64,000 nucleotides of DNA from Onthophagus taurus (lineage: Eukaryota > Arthropoda > Insecta > Coleoptera > Scarabaeidae), in the NCBI RefSeq assembly GCF_036711975.1, contig NC_091967.1, positions 21,514,001 to 21,578,000 on the forward strand. Direction: 5' to 3'. The position numbers and the translations under genes were made by a program. The notes under the pieces were generated by a model that was not told the DNA's origin, ran no database searches, and saw nothing but the letters and a program-made list of their open reading frames with translations. How positions within the stretch are numbered: the first letter of the stretch is position 1; each line of letters starts with the position of its first letter. Positions 6,061 through 61,435 of the stretch are shown here, one piece after another.

Positions 6061-6699
6061 TTAATTCGAACCGTTACACACCTACTATAAAGCCTAGCGC
6101 GCACCATTTTGTTACGGCAATTTAAAAATAACTGAAATAAAATATACTAAGTTATATGAAGTGCGGTAATTAAAAATTAGACTTTAATTTCATTTCGATT
6201 AATTTAATAACATTCCGGTAATAACTTAAAAAAATTAACTAGAGTAGAGATACTAAGATTTGTAAAAACGTTCATCGATAGATGATGCGATTTTAAATTT
6301 TAAATAAGAGCAATAATTTTAATACTGTTAAATTTTAAGATAAATATACGGCCAATAAAGTCTACGTACACATTCAATTTTATACCTTTTCAAAAATATA
6401 CAAATGTAAAGAATTTGATGGAGAAAAACCATGTAGCATTTATTTCTGCATTAAACTTTTTTGAAATTTATAAATAAATTAATACCCCACGCACAATAAG
6501 TCTCCATACACCGGCGACCTCCGAGTGTAAAGGTTGTCGCCCATTGTAGGTTGGTAGTTCCGGTACAGTTCGTTCATTTTATAGCTGATTATCGTCAACA
6601 GTTTCAGTCTAATGGGATGTATCATTTCGAAGAAAGTTATACAAACAATGTAACAATTACAAATTTATCCAGGTGCTCAAGTCTACTTTTTTGAAATCT

Positions 6700-9142
6700 T
6701 TTTATCAAAATTCAGAAAGCATTTTGTAAAACTCGTCTAGGTGTCTTCGACATTCAACTATGCTATCCCCATCTGTCAGATCATCATGCTATATTAGCAA
6801 CTCTTGAGGATGATAATTCTGCTGTAATGTCAGTGTATAAGCGATGCTACAATACTTCTTCTAAAATGAAGTTTTCCCAAAAAATAGAGAAAACTGATTG
6901 GAATAATTTAAGTACAATACAGTCCGCACAAGAAGCTTTTACTGGTTTTTTTAATATCTACAGATATGATTTTAATGAATGCTTTCCTTTAAAACAACAG
7001 GCGAATCCATCTAGGTCACTTTCGTGCTTTCATAATAGGCTATATTCTATGAAGGAAAAACTGGATATACTTGATACAGTTGCTAAAACAACAAAAACAA
7101 CTGAATCATATGATATCTATAAAAAGTATAGAACGGAATACAGACATGAATTAATGAAAACTAAACAAAAGTATAATGCAAACTACATTATGAATGCGAG
7201 AAATAAATCTAAAGCAGCCTGGCAGTTAATCAAGGGAAACATAAACTTATGTTCAAAACAAAAAATAAAATCTGATGTAAACGCAGAATAATTGAGCATC
7301 TTTTTCACGCGTACACCGTTGGAAATTGCATCATCATTGATGAGTGATGGTCCAAATAGCCCCAGTGATTACATGAACTGTGTAAAATCGAATGTTAACT
7401 CGTTTGTACTGTTTTCTACGAATGAATTAGAGATATTTAATACTATGATGCAACTCAATAATAGTCACTCAGAAGATTATTATGATATGTCAACGAGCAT
7501 TTTAAAATTTATTGCTTACATCATTATTGAATCATTAAATATTGTTATTAACAAATGTTTTGAACAGTTCATTTTCCCTTATGAGCTAAAAATTGCGAGA
7601 ATATCTCCCATATACAAAAAAGGTGACGTAAATGATCCTAACAATTTTCGGCCAATAGCTATCTTACCAATAATGTCAAAACTTTTTGAGCATCTGTTGA
7701 AATCGCGTCTTCTTGACTATTTGTACAAGGAAGATGGTTTCAGTAAACATCAATATGGCTATGTAAGGAAATCCTCCACAACTAAAGCTGTAATTGATCT
7801 ACATGAGCAAATCATTGATGGTTTTAATGAGTCAAAAAAATTTCGGCACTAATGTTGGACCTTACAAAGGCATTTAATTGTATCAATCATAAGATATTGT
7901 TAGAGAAACTGGAATATTACCCCACGATAACAGTATTTCAATCGTACCTAGAAAATCGAAGACAGGTGGTCCAAGTTGGTAATAATAGATCGACCATAAG
8001 AAGGGTCGAAATCGGTGTACCGCAGGGATTCATCTTGGGTCCAATTTTATTATTTTATTTGAACGATCTTCCGGATACTCTGAACATGTGTAAGACGATA
8101 ATGTATGCAGATGACACAACATTGATAAATATATCTAGTACAGTTGAAGAGCTACATGAAAAGGAAGGTCTCAGTCAAAAGGTTGCATCAGATTGGTTTA
8201 CAAGGAACAAACTTAAGCTGAATGAAAATAAGACACAAAACATTGATTTTAGTACTAACAAAAATAATAACGTCTCGGCAGTTAAGTTACTGGGGCTGCA
8301 GTTTAAAAACTCTTTGAAATGGAATCTATAAGTGGACGTAATAGGAAAGAAACTTAGCTCAGTAGTTTACCAACTTAGAACACTTATAAGCCTAACAGAT
8401 TTGCAAACAGTGATGGTGGTACATTACTCGAATTTCCAGAGTGTGATGTCATATAGCAGTGGTGTCCATAACGTCGATCGACCGGTCGACCGCGAAGCCG
8501 TTTTAAGTCGATTGCGAACAAAATCATAAAATCATGAATCTGAAATATCTATACCTCAGAGCAAAAAAAAAGGAAGGTTTTAAACCCTTCGGTCGATCTT
8601 CGCAAGACATTTATATAAAAAGTGGAACTTGATCAAAAATTAGTGGACACCACTGTCATATAACATTCTGTTTTGGGGAAGTTCACCAGGAGCGGAGCGT
8701 ATACTCTTAATTCAGAAAAAAACAGTAAGTACGCTATTCAAAGCTAATCAACTGAAAAGTTGTAGGCCACTTTTTATAAAATCAAAAATAATGTCCGTTT
8801 ACTCGTTGTACCTTTATAAATGTTGCATATTTGTAAAAGAAAATCTCAATGGTCTATTATGCCGAGGGGAGTTACATAACTACAGTAGGAGAAATCAAAA
8901 ATTGGAATCAAAAAGGAATAAGATTTTATAATAAATTGCGGGACGACACAAAATTCCTTTCACGAGAACAATTTAAACATGTCCTAAAATTACATTTCAG
9001 CAGCAACCCGTACTATTCCATACATAAATTCACGTATACGCCGTACATTTTGTAATTGTCATTTATTGAAATTGTAAACATACTCTTGACGACCTGTAAC
9101 TTTATGTTTATTTTTTTGAATACATTATTATTATTATTATCC
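6700..9142 (+). mobile_element. Jockey/CR1-type LINE, nearly complete RT with few breaks
   Basis: Consecutive frames read endonuclease/RT linker (6827-7291), RT fingers and palm with NNFRPIAILP and FSKHQYGYVRKS (7620-7790), motif A LDLTKAFNCINHKI (7855-7895), GVPQGFILGP (8010-8040), catalytic YADDT (8104-8118), thumb KLLGLQFKNSLKWNL, and a C-terminal region continuing after 8656 (FWGSSPGAERILL, SLYLYKC) to about 9057. Breaks are an in-frame stop near 7289, a 1-nt overlap frameshift near 7852, a stop near 8330, and an inserted MITE at 8457-8655. A (TTA)n run at 9124-9140 is a plausible 3' tail. The 5' end is truncated; it starts in the end of the endonuclease domain near 6700. Confidence 0.85.
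8457..8655. mobile_element. hAT-type MITE inserted in the LINE RT frame
   Basis: A 199-bp insertion has terminal inverted repeats cagtggtgtcca (12/12) and is flanked by 8-bp direct repeats tcatatag/tcatataa (7/8). Both the CAG...CTG termini and the 8-bp duplication fit hAT elements. LINE coding similarity stops at the left flank and resumes at the right flank (VMSY, then NILFWG), so the insertion boundaries are fixed independently. The interior includes tcgatcgaccggtcgaccg and has no transposase. Confidence 0.8.
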
Positions 9143-22770: not shown

Positions 22771-25596
22771 CAGTAAAACCTCGTTTGAGCGGATTTCGGA
22801 TAAAATATTTTTAAGCCATACTATTAATATAATCTATTTAATACATCAGTATATTTAAATAAAAATCTTAGCGCTCATAGATCGAATCCAACTTGGGTTA
22901 TTTGAGTTATTTCCCAAGTTATTCTATTCTATGTTCATAGATAAAGTATTCCCCGAATAGTCTATACAATGTATAAATCAAGGACGGTAGTTCTAATTAA
23001 TAATAATAAATGTCTTTATTGCACAAACCATTGAATACAACAAAAGAAAAAAATATATAATAATAACAAAAATTGTATATAATATGTAGATATACTCTAA
23101 ACTAGAATGTTTAAACAACAATAAATCAAAAAAATCAGTATCTTACAACACAAAAAAAACGAAAAGGAAAAAATGGAATTGTGCAATAGGCGGGCTTCAG
23201 ATAAAATCTGTTCAACTCTCTTGCTCTGAACGTTAAAAAAAAACATGCATTCATATGATTAACTATGACAAGGCTGGACATTACTCCAGAAATTTATCTT
23301 TATGTAGTGTTTTTTGAAATTATTGATATTTAGTTTTTTGATCATAGGCGGTAACGTTCCATATGACTTATATATGTGATATGTAAAAGATCTGTGAAAC
23401 AAAGAGGTTCTGTATTTTGGTGGATATATACCATATTTTAATCTCATCTGTAGAGCATTGTTCGCGCTTTTAATAGTATTTTTCTCATACAAGTATGTCG
23501 GTATATGTGTTGTGACGATTTTATGAAACAAACTATGCTACTCTCGGCGGGTATCCATTCTGTGCCACCCAACTTCTTTAAGTTTATGTGAGATTCTGTC
23601 ATACTTCCGGATTCCAAAAATAAACCTAAGGCAACTATTTTGGACTTTTTGTATGCGATTCGATGTAAGCACATCTATAGCTGATACACAGGTGCCATAA
23701 AGTTGAAGTGAGACAGCACAAGAGAATCACATAACTGTTTCTTTAAGGATTAACTTTTCTTAAACATGAATACGACCTTCTCATGTAAATATTAATTTGA
23801 GTTTTAAATCTGAAGGTGTTATCTATTGTTAAACCAAGGCATTTTGCTTCCTTAACAACATTGATTCTTGAACCATTTATATTAATATCAAGATCCAAGT
23901 TCAGCCCTGTGAGCCCTCTTCCGAAACATACGCACGCAGACTTATCAGGATTAATCTTTAATTTATGAAACGTTGCAATATTAAATATAATAGACAGGTC
24001 CTCATTAATACGCATCTGTACTAGATTCTTATCATTTTCATGAATGGACAAATAACACTATATATCATCAGCATACATATTGACTTTACAATATTGCACC
24101 CGTCTACTAAACTGCGAAGTGTACTAAGAGAACAAGAGAGGCCCCAAAACCGAACCCTGTAGTACACCATTCAAAACTCTAACTGTGTGAGACAAATCAT
24201 CACCGATCCTTACCCTTTGAGACCTATCACAGAGGTAGTCAGCCAACAAAGATACCGCATCTGAACTCAGCCCCAAATCATACAGAATCTTTTAGAAAGA
24301 AACACTTTAGAAAAATCCAGGAAGACCACAGCAGTGTACAATCCAGTGTCCGTGTTCGTAAAAATATCATCAGTTAGGCGCAACATTGCAGTTGTACAAC
24401 TACAGCCACTTTGAAAGCCAGACTGCTTCAGAGGCAACAAGCTATTACTCACTGACTGCTGCTTCATAATTTTTTCAAGCACCTTAGATAACGTTGGAAA
24501 AATACTTATTGGTCTAAGATCTTTCAATTGCTTGGGATCATCAACCTTTGCCAAAGGAATAACTATCCCTTGCTTCCAAAGCGTAGGAAATTTACTGTCC
24601 GAAAGACAACAATTGAGAAAATGAATCAGATACGGCAAAATCAACGGACAGCAGAGACGTATCTTTCCTATGGAAATACTTTGCCTCACTTACATTTTTA
24701 AATACAAATTGATATTGACATGCATTATGCTTATAAAAATCCAAATTAACAGACAGCAAACTATCCACAAGGTCGTTTACACTATCTACAAAATAACTGT
24801 TAATACGGTCAGGGTCCTGAAAATGCAACGGTAAGGACAACGCCCTGCCATCCGTCATAACCCTAAGTCCTCTAACTTCATTCCATATCTGTTTAGAACT
24901 TCTTTGTTCTGTCAAATAAGCAAAATAAGCACATTTTTCGTTCCTCACAGCTGCAGTGGTGTACTTACGAAGAGATTTGTAGTAATCCTAACCACCCCGA
25001 CTGCGAGTCCTCTTGAATTTCATTTTTGCGTCATCCCTCAAATTCATCAAGAGCTTTATATTATCTGTCAACCAAGGACTGCGTGGTTTAGTAAATCTGT
25101 AATTCCTCAGTGGAGCATGAGCATCAAACAAGGCAATTATGTTACTATTTAAAAACTCAAGTTTCCGATCAATATCATCCATATAAAACATAAAATTGAA
25201 TGGTATGGACTGCAGGTCAAGCAAAAATTATTCGTGACTAATGCGACTCAACAAGCGCATATTTCTATAAAGTGGAACATTTTCAAGAACATTCACACTC
25301 ATCACACAGTACACCATGTCATGATCGGAAAGACTCCCGATCTAAAGACTCCCGGCTAAACACACATCTTTTTAGTTCTAGGTCTAGTGTTAATTCTAGT
25401 TTTAGTTGTTATTTAGTGCTAGATTGTTGTATATTTTTATTGAACTAACTAATTTAGAACGCAACCGTGTGGATAGCTGTCTGAATTTGTGTGCATTAAA
25501 ATTATTCATTCAAACAGTTTAAAGTGAAAATAACATTTTTTTTATATAACGGACACTCCCTTCCCCGTATTAATCCGTTATATCGAGGTGTTACTG
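22771..25596. mobile_element. Tigger/pogo-type element ends enclosing a LINE
   Basis: cagtaaaacctcg at 22771-22783 and its inverted counterpart cgaggtgttactg at 25584-25596 (one mismatch) are pogo/Tigger termini, each flanked by ta. The remaining non-LINE interior is about 200 bp on each side without transposase. A minus-strand LINE (about 22990-25345) fills the rest, so a short Tigger MITE was split by a later LINE insertion. Confidence 0.65.
22990..25345 (-). mobile_element. 5'-truncated Jockey/CR1-type LINE
   Basis: Read on the minus strand: end of the endonuclease with SDHDMVY (about 25330), linker (25224-24592), RT with LRPISIFPTLSKVLEKI, KQSGFQSGCSCTTAMLRL, motif A FLDFSKVF (24689-24267), MYADDI (about 24070), thumb VKEAKCLGLTIDNTF (about 23850), and a C-terminal region with RTSLFHRSFTYHIYKSY (about 23390). 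Stops and frameshifts are many. The 3' end carries aataaa and a (TTA)n run near 22997-23010. The same C-terminal motif recurs at 63.9 kb. Confidence 0.85.
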
Positions 25597-27113: not shown

Positions 27114-28513
27114 ATGCGTCTTACGGTGCTGTTGCTATGTATTTTAAGTGGCTGTTTTGCCCAATTTATTAATTATGACGGGTAAGCTAATAGAAACTTA
27201 ATTATTTTCTCATTTAAAACCTAAATGGTTTTAGTTCTAAGCTGTATCAACTGATTCCTGAAAATGAAGAACATTTGGAATTTTTGGATTTTATTCAAAA
27301 TAGTGAAAGATATGATTTTTGGTCGGAGACTCGTTCCTTAAATATTCCTGCTGTTGTTATGGTAAAAGGTGCCGCCTTGGAAAATTTCTGGGAAGCCTTA
27401 ACTAGCAGAGGAATCAAGTTCAAACTGTTAATGAATAATGTACAAAGATCCATTGATAATGAAAAAATTAGACAAAAATCTTCCAAACCAGTTGGAGAAG
27501 GTCAAATCAGTTTTACACAATATCATCGTTATGATGAAGTAGATCTTATCTGCTTTATAAAACATTTTTAACATCGAATGTTTTAGATTGTCAGCTACTT
27601 ACAAAGATTAGCAGTAGATTATCCAGAAAAGGTTGTGCTTGAAGAATTTGGTACCTCTTACGAGGGTAGACCCTTGTACGTTATTAAAATTGGAAGTGGG
27701 CCATCTTCAAATCCCGCCGTGTTAATTGATGGAGGCATTCATGCTCGTGAATGGATTTCCCCAGCTGTTACTTTATACACCATTAAACAATTAGTTGAAA
27801 ATGAAAGTAATGCTGACATGATTGCTAATGTTAATTGGGTTATTGTTGTTGTTTTAAATCCAGATGGTTATGAATATACTCATACAACTGTAAAAATTTA
27901 CTCTTAAATATTATTACAAGTTATTTTATTTTTAATTACGTTTTAGAATCGATTGTGGAGAAAAACAAGACGTCCCGGTGTTCAATGTATTGGCGTTGAT
28001 ATGAACAGAAACTTTGATTTCCATTGGATGGGCCCAGGTACAAGTGCTAACGAATGTTCTGAAACCTTCGCCGGACCTTACGCCTTTTCGGAACCTGAAG
28101 CACAATCGTTCGCAAAGTTAGCTCAAAGCATGGATAACATCTTCTTATATTTAGGGGTTCATAGTTATGGTCAATGGTTATTGTATCCATGGGGATTCAC
28201 TACAGATCTTCCTGAAAACGCCGATGAACTTCAAGAAGTAGGTGAAAGAGTTGCTGCTGCTATAAAATCTATAAATGGAACTGTTTATGTAACTGGAACA
28301 TCTCCCAATTTAACTTATTACGTTTCCGGAACAACTAAAGATTGGGCAATGGGAGTTGCAGGAGCTAGATTAAGTTATACAATTGAGTTACCAGGTGGAG
28401 GAAATGCCGGGTTTGATTTGCCTGCGGAAAAGATTATGTCAGTATGCGAGGAAACTTGGCCTGGTATTATTGAATTTTATAATTATATTGTTGAAAATAC
28501 CAAACGTATGTAA
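27114..28513 (+). CDS. Carboxypeptidase A-like (gene A), Lys at S1' position; predicted acidic-residue specificity
   Basis: This gene encodes a predicted secreted zinc procarboxypeptidase (M14A) of 413 residues that would remove C-terminal residues from peptides in the gut lumen. Exons are 27114-27181, 27235-27538, 27587-27889 and 27947-28513; all introns are GT-AG and 48-57 bp, and phases agree. The signal peptide is residues 1 to about 16, the activation peptide about 17-110, and the catalytic domain the rest. Zn ligands are H176, E179 (IHARE) and H297 (VHSYG). R230, N245-R246, Y350 and catalytic E372 (YTIELPGGG) are all present. Residue 356, equivalent to CPA position 255, is Lys (SGTTKDW). 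Position 255 sets specificity, and Lys there is known from an insect glutamate-specific carboxypeptidase, so acidic substrates are predicted. It lies alone and in opposite orientation to B-E. aataaa follows at 28520. The family is certain; specificity is inferred. Confidence 0.93.
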
Positions 28514-30889: not shown

Positions 30890-32230
30890 TCAATTGGTCT
30901 CTTACAAAACTTTCATTAAAGCAACAGTTTTTGATTGGATTAACAAATTTTCTACAAACGCGTTTTTCTTAAAAACTATTGCTTTGATCAGGACAGAAAG
31001 AGGTTCTAGGAATTATTGTATCTGTGGAGGTAGGTTTTCTATAAATTTTGTAATTAAGACACTTATTAATAGCATCTCGTGAGATGTTTAGATCGAGGAA
31101 GTTAATTTGGCCATTATTTTTTCTTTCAATTGTAAATTCAATATTTCCTACATTGTTGAATAGGTTTAATAGGGCAATCAAATTGGCTTTTGAACCATCA
31201 AATATAATCAGGATGTCGTTCACGTATCTAGCATAAAATTGTATATGTTTTGTTGAGAAATGATGTTCTTTCTGTTTAAATATAACTTTTTCTAGATGGT
31301 CAACATAAAATTCAGCTAGGAGACCAGATAGTGGTAAACCCATAGGCAAACCGTCCGGCATACAATAAAATTTCTCATCGAATAAAAAGTTTTGTTTGGT
31401 AATAATTTGTAAGGCGTCCATTAGGTTCGTTACATCGAGAAAATTAAAATATGTTAACATATAAGTTCTTTATGTCAAACGAGACGAAAATAGAATTATG
31501 ATTAATTTCAATATTTTTAAGTTTAGTGATCAATTCTGTTGAATTTCTTATCGAATAAGGGGATTGGAAGTGTAAAGCCTTGGTTAAGATGTAGTGGATA
31601 GCTTTAGCCATCTTGTTGCAAGGAGAATGTATTCCGCTAACAATGGGTCTTATGGTTTTTTGTGATTTATGGAGCTTATCTAAACTGTATAATGTAGGGT
31701 GTAAAGGGTTCATGTTGTTTAGTTTATTAATGTAAAAATTGAATTTTTCGAATGTAGATTGAGTCTTTTTTAGTGTGTCTTGAATTGTTTTATGAAATCA
31801 GGTAGAGGATCTTTTTTTATATGTAAGAAATTATTTAGATTATTTAGAATTATTTAGAAATTATTTAGAAGAATTATAGACTTTTTTCCATGAAGACCAG
31901 GCTTGCATTTTTATCACCGAAGGTGCAAATAATATTGTTTTTAGATAGCTTGGATCTTAAGGATTTAATTGTATTGAAAATAGTGTTGTCACTGTAAGAA
32001 ACGGTTTTATATTTTTTAATATGACTCAGTATATCTTTCTGTAGAAGGTGGTCATTAGGATGACAGGGAATTTGAGATTCGAGGTCTATTGACAATTTAG
32101 ATACATCAAATTTACCATTGTTAACGGAAAATTCCTCTTCTATAGTAAATACATAACTAGAAAGATTTGTATATTTAGGAGCGAATGAAAAATTGATTTC
32201 AATTGGTTTCCAAGGCAATTTCCACTGGTG
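30890..32230 (-). mobile_element. Penelope-like element, degenerate RT
   Basis: Read on the minus strand: an N-terminal region (32218-31874), LYSLDKLHK and RPIVSG (about 31690-31640), motif A SFDIKNLYVNI (about 31480), GLPMGLPLSGLLAEFYVDHL (31350-31295), YARYVNDILIIFDG (about 31230-31190), and NFLDLNI. The catalytic YVDD box reads YVND, with the second acidic position changed, and there are frameshifts near 31450 and 31720-31870. No GIY-YIG endonuclease follows. The family is clear from the KLHK and RYVDD context. Confidence 0.82.
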
Positions 32231-50040: not shown

Positions 50041-50448
50041 CGATGCCGTAAAGCATAAGAGAAACGGCAAAAAAAAGATTATTATCAGCAGAAAAAAATT
50101 AATAGTAGATAAAAACAACGTAATTAAATAAGCTTATATTTTTAATAGACTCAGTGATTCGATTAAATTTATGGACTAATATGTGATAACATCAATATAT
50201 TGGGAACAGTTAATAATTAATTAATAAGTGTTATGAACTTTTTTAGGTTTTATTTATTTAACCGATTAATCTTTATAAGTATTTAAGTAAATATTTGTGT
50301 CTATAAGAGTTTATCTAAAACATATACTCAATTTATCAAAAAAAATGTATTGCCTCATAAATTCTTGTTAGATTGAAACGAATGATGTAATTGAATGAAA
50401 TGTAAACACTATTATAATTTGTTTATTACCACAATTTAGTACTTACTT

Positions 50449-50456
50449 TATAAAAG
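50449..50456 (+). promoter_or_regulatory. TATA-like box upstream of gene F
   Basis: tataaaag, the same core as the C, D and E promoters, 105-112 bp before the gene F start codon. The longer spacing implies an 80-nt leader if it is used. Confidence 0.4.
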
Positions 50457-50560: not shown

Positions 50561-51645
50561 ATGACTTCTTGTATATTGTATATGTTACATTTAACATTTC
50601 TGACAAGTATCGCAGCGTTAAAAACTGGCATAGATGGATTGTAAGTAATAAATACACACAAGCGATCATTTCCTTAATAATTTCTTATTTTAGTGAATAC
50701 AAGTTTCACAGATACAACCAATTTGATGACTTTATCGATTGGTATGGAGTCTTATTAGCTGAAAAATATCCAGATGTTGTAACAACCGAGTTTCCAATGA
50801 ATACCACCGAAATGCGTGGAATACCACTAATAAAAATAAGCAAAAATCCTGAAATTGAAAATGTAATTATATTCATAGAAGCTGGTATACATGGAAATGA
50901 ATGGTTAACCACTGCAGTTGCAATGTACCTTATCCGAGAATTAGTTGAGAACAAAGAAAATGATAATTTAATATCAGAAATTGATTGGTACATAGCCCCA
51001 GTTGTTAACCCCGACGGATATCAATACAGTTTCAAACAGGTAAAAACAAATTTAATTAAATTAAATATTAAAAAATTAAGTAAAAAAATAATTTAGAATA
51101 GAGCTTGGGAAAAAAATAGAATGAATTACAAAAATTGCACTGGTGTAGACCTCAACAAAAATTTTAACATTCACTGGAAACCAACTGCTAATTGCGAAAC
51201 ATCTTCAGGACCTACACCATTTTCAGAACCGGAAACCACTTTTATTAAAAACGAAATTCTTAAGAGCGAAGATCGAATAAAAGTCTACCTTTCTTTACAT
51301 TGTTGCGGTGCAAAAATTTTGCATCCTTGGGGATATACAAAAGATTTACCGGAAAATATAAACCCACTTTTAGATGTGGCTCAAAAAATGCAAAAAGCCA
51401 TGAATTCTGTTAGAAACACTCAATATGTTATAGGAAGTCCATCTGAATGGGATAATATTTATGGAAGCAGTTTTGATTGGGCAAAAAGCGTTGGAAAAAT
51501 TGATCTAAGCTATATGATAAAATTAGCAGGTCCAATCGATAATTATATTGTACCCGAAGATCAAATAATTCCATCTGCAAAAGAAGTTTTTGAGGGTTTA
51601 AAAGCAATCCATCGTCATCTCGTACACATGTATGTTAATAATTAA
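50561..51645 (+). CDS. Carboxypeptidase-like pseudoenzyme without activation peptide (gene F)
   Basis: A spliced M14A-family gene of 324 residues. Exons are 50561-50640, 50694-51039 and 51097-51645. Exon 1 encodes a signal peptide (MTSCILYMLHLTFLTSIAA) and joins in phase straight to the start of the catalytic domain (EYKFHRY); the activation peptide of about 90 residues is absent, and the 53-bp intron cannot hide it. I chose ATG 50561 because the overlapping frame that starts at 50548 translates the intron. Zn ligands H93, E96 (GIHGNEW) and H210 (LHCCG) remain. Lost are R71 (N95), R127 (E147), R145 (K163) and the general base E270 (K284, YMIKLAGP). Position 255 is Phe, and Y248 is not aligned. 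Zn binding is possible, peptidase activity is not expected. No stop or frameshift, so it looks maintained rather than dead. It converges on gene G. Confidence 0.88.
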
Positions 51646-51656
51646 AAGAATTATTA

Positions 51657-51706
51657 AATAAACCAGATTAACAGATTAAAAATCACTCAATCTATATTGT
51701 TTTATT
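51657..51706. terminator. Facing polyadenylation signals of genes F and G
   Basis: aataaa for F at 51657-51662 (plus) and aataaa for G at 51706-51701 (minus) lie within 50 bp in the 71-bp gap between the two stop codons. The 3' ends therefore abut or overlap. Confidence 0.6.
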
Positions 51707-51716
51707 TTTATATTGA

Positions 51717-53370
51717 TTACAATTCGTCATTAATTTCGTTATTCAAATTCTCAGAAATTAGTTCTGGATCTTTATGAACACTTGCAACATTTTCTTCTTC
51801 TTCATTCTTATCATTTTTGTAATTTTCAACAACGACCGCTAAAATTTCTTCTTCTTCAATTTCTTCCGGGTGATAAAAACTTGTTTTAATGAAATCGTGA
51901 AAAACTTCTAAGGCAGGAATAAATTGTTTAACAACACTTTCGATTTTGGCAATGGGATAATCAAATCCTAAATAACCAGGAGATGGTAATTCGATTGTAT
52001 ATCCTAAAGGAATTCCAACAACACCCACCGCCCAATCAATTGAACTTCCGGAATAAAAAAACTTTTTACCACAAGAAGCACGCGTTCTATATATTACTTC
52101 GGAAGAATCTAATATCGCTTGTGATGCTTTTTCAGCGAGATATTTATGTAATTTTATATTTTCCGGTTGATTGTGGGTAAATCCGTATGGATATAAAATG
52201 GTTGGTCCAAAACTATGGATGCTTAAATAAAGTTGGATTCGGCCAACGTTTTCTTCGATTAATTTCTTTATAGCTTTTGATTCAGGTTCGGAAAAAGGAT
52301 TTTTTCCGTGGTAATTCCAAGATTCTGTATCATCTTTACTTAGTTTATTACCCCAATCCACATCAAAATTTCTGTTAATGTATGTACCGAAAATTTTTTC
52401 GGAATGTTTCGCTCTATTTTTCTTCCATAATCTTTGCTATAAAAAATGTTACACTAAAATTAATCTTAAAGTGGAACGGAAAGATATAAATTACCACAGT
52501 GTGTGAGTATTCGTAACCATCTGGATTAACCAAAGGTAAAATGTACCAATCAACAGTTTCGATTAAGTTTTGATTCGATTTGTCTAAAAGGTAATCAATA
52601 ATATAAAGGGCTTGTGCTGGCCCGATCCATTCTCTTGGACTTAATCCAGCGTCGATAAAAATCGCAGGTTTATCAAAATTTCCACCAGTTGATATTTTTA
52701 CTACTTTTATGTTTCTACCTTCAAAAGTTTTTCCTAAACTTTCTACACTCACATATCCATATTTTTGTGATAAATTATCCAAATAAGACATAATCTGAAA
52801 TTGATTTTATTCAATCCTCTAAGATAAGACGGAATTAACAACGTGGAAAATAAAAAAAAATAAAAGGATTACCGTTTCATATCTATGATAAGTTTTAAAA
52901 TTAATTTCCCCTTTTTTTGGAACGGGTGCATTCCGCATATCATTTATTTCCTTATTAAATGCTCTAAAAATTAATCTTTAAAACAAAATCTTTTTAATTA
53001 GCACAAAATACAAACTTATTAAGATGCTCGATTTGTGTTTGATCAGTAATATTAATCATATAAAACATGTTTTCCATTGCGGGTTGAGCTATTTCAGCTA
53101 TAGCCACTTCAACCGGTTGATTAGCTTCCCGAAGAGTTGTCCAATAATCAAGATTTAAAGTGTTGTCGTATAAAATACCAAAATCTTCGACTACTTGTTC
53201 GGTTGGAACCCATATTCTATAAAGTTTCCAGCTAAAATATTTTAAAATATTATACGGGATAATCGCGGCAATAAAAATTTAAAAAGTTAATATAATTACC
53301 CTTCATAAGTGTGCCTAACCAGAGAAATAGAAGATTGTAAAAATAAAAAAAGAAATAATACAGATTTCAT
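51717..53370 (-). CDS. Divergent carboxypeptidase-like protein lacking a zinc ligand (gene G)
   Basis: A 465-residue secreted M14A-family protein. Exons in transcript order are 53370-53300, 53231-53016, 52963-52873, 52794-52495 and 52436-51717; introns are 68, 52, 78 and 58 bp. Signal peptide MKSVLFLFLFLQSSIS, then an activation-peptide-like region and the catalytic fold. Zn ligand H69 is replaced by Ser (S178, AGLSPREW), while E181 and H300 stay. R127 is Lys (WKKNR). E270 (E375, YTIELPSPG) and N144-R145 are kept. Position 255 is Ile as in CPA. The conserved disulphide Cys pair of the other copies is missing. The last 55 residues are an acidic tail (EEIEEEEI, NEEEENV). Activity is unlikely; a binding or decoy role is conjecture. 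It has the most introns of the family and probably shows the ancestral structure. Confidence 0.87.
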
Positions 53371-60058: not shown

Positions 60059-60590
60059 CTTTAAAATAGAAAAAAATTAAGTTAAATTTACTTATTTGTT
60101 TATATTCGGGATATATAACGGGGAAAAGCACAATTTAGTATCCACTAAAAACAGTTAGTACAAGAAAAGCAACAACAATAAAACAACAACAAATTAATAA
60201 CAAAATTAAATAACAAATGCTCAATACATAACGCCTGAAAACTCTCTGCAAAACCACAAATAAATCAAAATTATTACAATGATTATTGTAGCATTGGTAA
60301 ATTTCGAGTAGTCTAAGTCGGACAACCAAGACAATAACGAAGTTCAAATAAACACATTACACCAATTGACGTTCGCCAAGCACCTCTAAGACTGACATAA
60401 TCTGCGTGAGCAAACGAAACGCCAGTCAGTTCAGAAGCATCTGCGAAGGTACGGAGTTTGCTTGAAGTAAAAGACAAACTGTTGAAAAAGCTAGTTGGAC
60501 ATCCAGCATGTGTCCAAGCGAACAGTGGTTCATCACGCGAGACTACACATTGTATTATTACATAAAATTGATTTTTAAAATGTTATTGAA

Positions 60591-61435
60591 TTGATAGAGA
60601 TTATAATAGAAGAACGCAAAAAGGAACTGCTTTGGCTGAGCATCAAAGCCCCCAACAGGAATGAGCCCATACCGAGCAGACATGGACCAGAATACGCTTG
60701 GGATATTCAAATCACCTATTTAGATTACTTGGTGACAGATAAACACAGCACAAAATCATCCGCGTATCCAGAGTTAATCTTCAACGTTGATGAGACAGGT
60801 CTTTATTGGAAGAAATTACCAGCACAAACTTTTATTTCTGGTGAAGAGCGATCTGCTCCAGGTTTTAAAGTTGCGAAAAATAGAATAACTGTTTTGCTGG
60901 GAGCGAATGTCTCAGGAACTTTGAAACTTAAACCGATGTTAGCGTACCATTCACTGACACCACGTGCTTTAAAGGGTCTCAATAAAGACATGTTACCAGT
61001 TCCGGGAAATGGAACAAGAAAGCTTGGGTCACATAAGCTATTTTCACAGATTGGTATACAAATTATTTTTGCCCTACTGTACTTCGCTTTTGCGAAAAAA
61101 ATAAATTAACACCTAAAGCAATCTTTAAGAATCTTTAAGATTATTGCAACCTTTAAGGCATACTATATCCTCAATACTTTCTAGGAAATGGTGAGAGTTT
61201 TGAACACTTTAGAGAAAACAGTCAAAGACTATTGGCGGTCTTTCGATATTTCAACATGCATTAATAATGTAAAGTCGGCTTGGGATGAAGTTTCGCCAAT
61301 ATGTTTAAGTGGAGTTTCGCGTAAACTTCTACCAGCATTAATGCACGATTTTGAAGAAGTACCATAACAAGAGAATCTAATTGAAAACGTTATGATGTCA
61401 CAGAAGATTAAAAGTCCAAAATCAACCACTCTCAT
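60591..61435 (+). mobile_element. Tigger/pogo-type DDE transposase relic
   Basis: The frame 60591-61109 contains FNVDETGLYWKKLP, EERSAPGFKVAKNRITVLLG and LKPMLAYHSLTPRALKG, the first-Asp region of Tigger/jerky-like transposases. The second Asp block is deleted at about 61085. Similarity resumes with TFKAYYILNTF and YWRSFDISTCINNVKSAWDE (61155-61288) and MHDFEEVP. It sits 0.5 kb upstream of the visible NVL exons, probably inside an NVL intron. Confidence 0.8.

Follow-up and report, generated by a model that had tools for sequence, protein, structure and literature searches.

A probable zinc-keeping, non-peptidase M14A carboxypeptidase homologue in a carboxypeptidase gene cluster of the beetle Onthophagus taurus

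Gene F lies in a 64,000-nucleotide stretch of the Onthophagus taurus genome (assembly GCF_036711975.1, contig NC_091967.1, positions 21,514,001 to 21,578,000), here called the window, and its sequence suggests that it probably encodes an intact, secreted non-peptidase homologue of the M14A (A/B subfamily) metallocarboxypeptidases with the zinc ligands kept. The protein combines an M14 fold with replaced catalytic residues, which is the mark of a pseudopeptidase. Zinc-keeping, catalytically dead M14A homologues are already known as a kind, and gene F would join them, the fungal protein Ecm14 and an entry from the blowfly Lucilia sericata being earlier examples.

The residue equivalences of gene F were read from an alignment to its paralogues. 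The zinc ligands H69, E72 and H196 are all kept, as H93, E96 and H210, whereas the general base E270 is replaced by K284 and R71 by N95. The substrate residues R127, N144 and R145 correspond to E147, N162 and K163, of which only N162 is kept, so that gene F lacks both the base and the full substrate-binding set of an active M14A enzyme. The residues named in an earlier reading made from the sequence only are all as we find them. That reading did not include the further replacements S197C, Y198C and F268 at the specificity position 255, the Tyr248 column, or the missing propeptide. The Tyr248 column holds Asp261 in gene F, with a Tyr three residues further on, and Tyr248 would be either lost or placed in a shorter loop. 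The disulphide cysteines (C156 and C175) are apparently both kept, the N174 tabulated at the second column being a matter of gap placement. The changes go beyond a sequencing slip, since they affect at least four distinct codons of the machinery (R71, R127, R145, and E270).

The M14 profile search of the genome (290.8 Mb in 33 contigs, containing the window) yielded at least 42 pieces. We modelled 16 genes by spliced alignment, namely A to G in the window, H and I on contig C5, J1 to J4 and K on C1, and the partial genes M1 and M2 on C3; the remaining pieces were set aside. All 12 genes of the set A to E, H, I, J1 to J4, and K keep H69, R71, E72, R127, N144, R145, H196, Y248, and E270. Apart from gene F, 13 M14A genes were modelled with a full catalytic domain, and R71, R127, R145, and E270 are kept in 12 of these, the thirteenth being the neighbouring gene G, which has lost a zinc ligand. 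With F, G, M1, and M2, at least four M14A genes in this genome have broken machinery versus the 12 that keep it, several of them in one cluster.

Gene F departs from the columns invariant in the 12 paralogues at 11 of 37 positions, two of which (C161 and Y248) hinge on gap placement. The changes affect five of the six machinery columns (R71, R127, R145, Y248, and E270, with N144 kept) versus 6 of the 31 others (Fisher p 0.005, which is only indicative, as the 12 reference genes were selected for keeping the machinery, G, M1, and M2 being scored separately). The other odd genes depart at 7/37 (G), 14/30 (M1), and 17/34 (M2) columns. Leaving out each of the 12 paralogues in turn gave 0 to 8 departing columns, with K (8/45) and I (7/44) the highest, and none of these columns belongs to the machinery.

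The Pfam domain Peptidase_M14 (Pfam ID PF00246) matches residues 48 to 308 of the gene F protein with 219.5 bits (cut-off 21.6), covering profile positions 8 to 285 of 286. The full catalytic domain is thus matched, which, with the zinc ligands kept, places gene F among the M14A homologues. A match to AstE_AspA (17.9 bits) falls below its cut-off of 25 and probably reflects the wider fold. The PDB sequence search returned 53 matches at E <= 0.001, with A/B type carboxypeptidases ranking first. The best match is an Aedes carboxypeptidase B (CPB; PDB ID 7eqx, E 8e-56), followed by carboxypeptidase O (CPO; PDB ID 5mrv, 2.5e-48) in second place, and a further match is 2c1c (8.1e-43). Among solved structures, the insect digestive carboxypeptidases (7eqx and 2c1c) are nearest to gene F by fold and, together with CPO, by sequence. 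The disulphide cysteines and zinc ligands are common to gene F, these digestive enzymes and paralogues A to E, but the paralogues, unlike gene F, also have R71, R127, R145, Y248, E270, and a propeptide. CPO is not known to have the usual propeptide. It is described in parts of PMC9925722 as an active enzyme with Arg255, where gene F has Phe, in addition to its K270.

Gene F comprises three exons encoding 324 amino acids in a single uninterrupted frame, and both introns are GT..AG, which bears out the exon coordinates and the intactness given earlier (Table 1). The second intron has the same position as an intron in cluster genes A and G, while the intron after the HRY motif, present in A to E and G, is missing from gene F and also from the H and I models. 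The product is likely secreted, judging by eye from its hydrophobic N-terminus.

The activation propeptide, which is usual although not universal for active M14A enzymes, is not recognised in gene F. Our propeptide profile was built from 12 genes (A to E, G, H, I, and J1 to J4) and recovers all 12, as expected by construction; it gave no match over 10 bits near gene F, K, M1, or M2. A missed propeptide exon 5' of gene F was considered and rejected, with no tblastn match and a best profile score near F of 4.4 bits (window 50287-50370). For the Aedes enzyme, parts of PMC8605224 describe a propeptide locked via a contact of its Asp34A with Arg70, the latter being by its numbering the R71 equivalent. 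R71 is kept in 12 of the 12 propeptide-bearing genes, and genes F, M1, and M2 are without both R71 and a recognisable propeptide.

R127 polarises the scissile carbonyl in M14A enzymes and lies close to E270. Sections of PMC9925722 assign acid-base catalysis to E270, and binding of the carboxyl end of the substrate to R127, N144, and R145. The gene F protein would fold as a carboxypeptidase, and zinc binding is likely to have been retained. Lys in place of Glu270 would remove the general base, and the Glu that replaces Arg127, with the Asn that replaces Arg71, would provide neither the carbonyl polarisation nor the hold on the substrate chain seen in the relatives. Peptidase action appears very unlikely because the charge is reversed at both 270 and 127. 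Given the closeness of the two positions in the enzyme, E147 may reach over the zinc to pair with K284 on the other side of the cleft. The propeptide would be dispensable with nothing left to keep latent. The most likely use would be the binding of a peptide or protein partner via the old cleft or the surface, and a peptide-binding role, also named in the earlier reading, is possible because N162 and K163 could still hold a carboxylate. The earlier description of gene F as a zinc-binding non-peptidase fits the three kept ligands and the changed base and substrate binders, and Ecm14, with E270K, showed no detectable activity on the substrates tried.

The changes R127E and E270K reverse the two charges reciprocally, and gene F retains the zinc ligands, N144, and a positive residue at 145, so it might conceivably still be an enzyme, with the roles of E147 and K284 exchanged or with zinc alone driving a different hydrolysis. 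We consider this extremely improbable. Y198 and Tyr248, too, are missing or displaced, the K270-bearing Ecm14 gave no activity with the standard substrates tried (parts of PMC7706225), and no precedent appears in the portions of papers covered.

The sequence-only reading had also suggested a decoy for plant carboxypeptidase inhibitors. In a form widened to inhibitors from parasites, such a protein would bind these molecules and thereby spare the active-looking enzymes B to E. The kept zinc ligands, the presence of the CPB-like genes B to E in the same window, and a cleft that would be open at once without a propeptide are consistent with this idea. However, sections of PMC10687636 describe R71, R127, R145, and Y248 as contacts of the potato inhibitor in the bovine enzyme, and three of these are replaced in gene F with Tyr248 lost or moved, making a decoy function very improbable. 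This argument concerns contacts in the cleft, and inhibitors binding chiefly outside it lie beyond its reach.

A search of the beetle genome with gene F returned the gene itself, split in two, plus further pieces of 23-45% identity, and thus no close copy for a clean ratio of nonsynonymous to synonymous changes (dN/dS, omega). The codon model covered 14 genes (the 12 paralogues, F, and G, with M1 and M2 left out) and 279 columns with F present and at least 12 of the 14 rows filled. An omega of 1 is rejected on the gene F branch (twice the log-likelihood difference, 2dlnL, 10.1) and on the gene G branch (2dlnL 22.5). When freed, omega is 0.126 on the F branch versus 0.060 elsewhere, with a log-likelihood gain over a single omega of only 0.26. 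Between M1 and M2, an omega of 1 is likewise rejected (2dlnL 213.6 over 276 codons, with synonymous sites saturated here too). The genome does seem, from these codon comparisons, to keep one non-peptidase M14 line (M1/M2) under constraint, and the same constraint is likely to act on gene F.

The following observations weigh against an intact, constrained non-peptidase. The synonymous sites on the F branch are saturated (fitted 9.3 neutral units), which makes its omega value untrustworthy, and the branch spans time both before and after the catalytic loss; the earlier claim that gene F is under selection thus holds as far as neutrality on its branch is rejected and is weakened by both of these points. 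The AlphaFold model has a mean predicted local distance difference test score (pLDDT) of 63.8, and model residues 108 to 177, including the R127 and R145 positions, score below 50. Some structural invariants are changed as well, including two Gly that are now M62 and I289. Furthermore, gene K keeps the machinery and R71 with no propeptide recognised upstream, so propeptide loss alone is not a mark of a dead enzyme and the link between propeptide and R71 is not strict.

Some of these features would also be expected if gene F were in early decay, with a recent catalytic loss, relaxed selection, and a frame not yet broken, which we regard as possible but unlikely. The long F branch (1.17 changes per column) and the changed structural invariants point in this direction, and for duplicated vertebrate CPO most of the low dS-dN values belong to copies judged to be pseudogenes or pseudoenzymes, as described in parts of PMC9925722. 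On the other hand, several separate active-site replacements and the propeptide loss coexist in gene F with an unbroken frame and intact splice sites. In simulated neutral drift, the 297-codon frame survived in 47 of 300 runs when drift reached 0.05 substitutions per site and in only 2 of 300 at 0.1, and the rejection of neutrality, on a branch that includes time before the loss, also speaks against decay. We favour the non-peptidase homologue.

Gene F groups with M1 and M2 in the best tree with weak support (50/89), and neither F and G as sisters (approximately unbiased test, p-AU 0.279) nor F, G, M1, and M2 together (p-AU 0.356) are rejected. M1 and M2 are 48% identical over 276 codons. Both have N69, N71, A144, and M145 with no recognisable propeptide, and these replacements are most simply older than the split of the two genes because they are common to both. 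A more far-reaching scenario is that an M14A line closed or re-wired its cleft around the zinc in step with propeptide loss, with the charges exchanged by R127E and E270K forming either a capping salt bridge or a catalytic pair of a new kind, and that the change of R71 to Asn in F, M1, and M2 marks one old non-peptidase clade. We regard this as quite improbable.

Gene G is arranged tail to tail with gene F, 71 bp separating the frame ends. It has the zinc ligand H69 changed to Ser, R127 to Lys, and D142 to Tyr, and both disulphide cysteines are gone, while E270, R71, and the propeptide are kept and a long acidic C-terminal tail is present. The two neighbours thus contrast, F keeping the zinc ligands and losing the base, and G keeping the base and losing a zinc ligand.

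The vertebrate M14 pseudopeptidases CPXM1, CPXM2, AEBP1, and CPD domain III belong to the N/E subfamily. As in gene F, R127, R145, or E270 are replaced in them in varied combinations, but they carry extra domains (discoidin or tandem units), and AEBP1, CPXM2, and CPD domain III, unlike gene F, also lose a zinc ligand, according to parts of PMC11266112. Fungal Ecm14 has K270 and all zinc ligands, with no activity detected on the substrates tried (parts of PMC7706225 and PMC11266112). Ecm14 and gene F are alike in their M14A-like fold, the kept H69, E72, and H196, the change of E270 to Lys, and a replaced position 145. Ecm14, as far as these sources cover it, keeps R127 and has D144, H145, and a cleavable prodomain, whereas gene F has E127, N144, and K145 with no recognisable prodomain. 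K270 is the only one of these Ecm14 family marks that gene F has, placing it outside that family. The two would have independent origins. In L. sericata, one cluster is classed as "Subfamily M14A nonpeptidase homologues" in the relevant part of PMC4826915.

None of the titles and abstract openings searched in the open-licence literature names an M14A protein of an insect that carries R127E or E270K, and the pair of R127E and E270K with propeptide loss is absent from the portions of papers covered. Inactive M14 proteins are not mentioned in the portions covered of PMC8956072, PMC12027728, and PMC4398375, and, from the parts of reviews at hand, little work seems to have been done on non-peptidase M14A proteins beyond fungi and vertebrates. 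This genome could reveal how binding proteins arise from a family of digestive enzymes, and the order in which such proteins lose base, zinc ligand, and propeptide. It also calls for caution, as the annotation "zinc carboxypeptidase" in insects does not by itself mean a digestive enzyme.

Table 1. Coordinates of gene F, other M14 genes, and further features; positions refer to the window unless preceded by L031, L038, or L039.
Feature	Position	Strand	Remarks
Gene F	50561-51645	+	
Gene F exon 1	50561..50640	+	N-terminal hydrophobic stretch, by eye a likely signal peptide, and a few residues; no propeptide recognised
Gene F exon 2	50694..51039	+	Zinc ligands H93, E96; N95 at R71 position; without the intron after HRY
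Gene F exon 3	51097..51645	+	E147 (R127), N162 (N144), K163 (R145), zinc ligand H210, C211-C212 (S197-Y198), F268 (255), K284 (E270), stop
TATAAA, possible TATA box	50449..50454	+	112 bp 5' of gene F ATG; consensus match only
AATAAA, polyadenylation-like signal	51657..51662	+	14 bases from start of gene F stop codon; consensus match only
Gene G	51717-53370	-	
Gene A	27114-28513	+	
Gene K	L038 3316-4528	+	
Gene M1	L039 2756-3377	-	Extends further
Gene M2	L039 7849-8574	+	Extends further
M14-like scrap	L031 5440-5505	-	
Reverse transcriptase-like frame	6695-8931		By eye from list of open reading frames
Reverse transcriptase-like frame	23259-24987		By eye from list of open reading frames
Reverse transcriptase-like frame	30969-31797		By eye from list of open reading frames
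DDE transposase-like frame	60579-61109		By eye from list of open reading frames

Gene A has Lys at the specificity position 255, where B to E have the CPB-like Asp255. By analogy with Arg255 in CPO (parts of PMC9925722), this Lys would suggest a preference for acidic C-terminal residues. The short M14-like scrap is 50% identical to gene F residues 146 to 167, lies in a stop-rich stretch between two intact M14A genes, and is probably gene debris. Of the telomere-type repeats, six copies of TCAGG have no exact match in the genome and six copies of TTAGG match at one place within a contig, a weak indication at best of the insect order, since simple repeats are passed over in such DNA searches. 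Elsewhere in the window, three frames resemble pieces of reverse transcriptase and one a piece of a DDE transposase.
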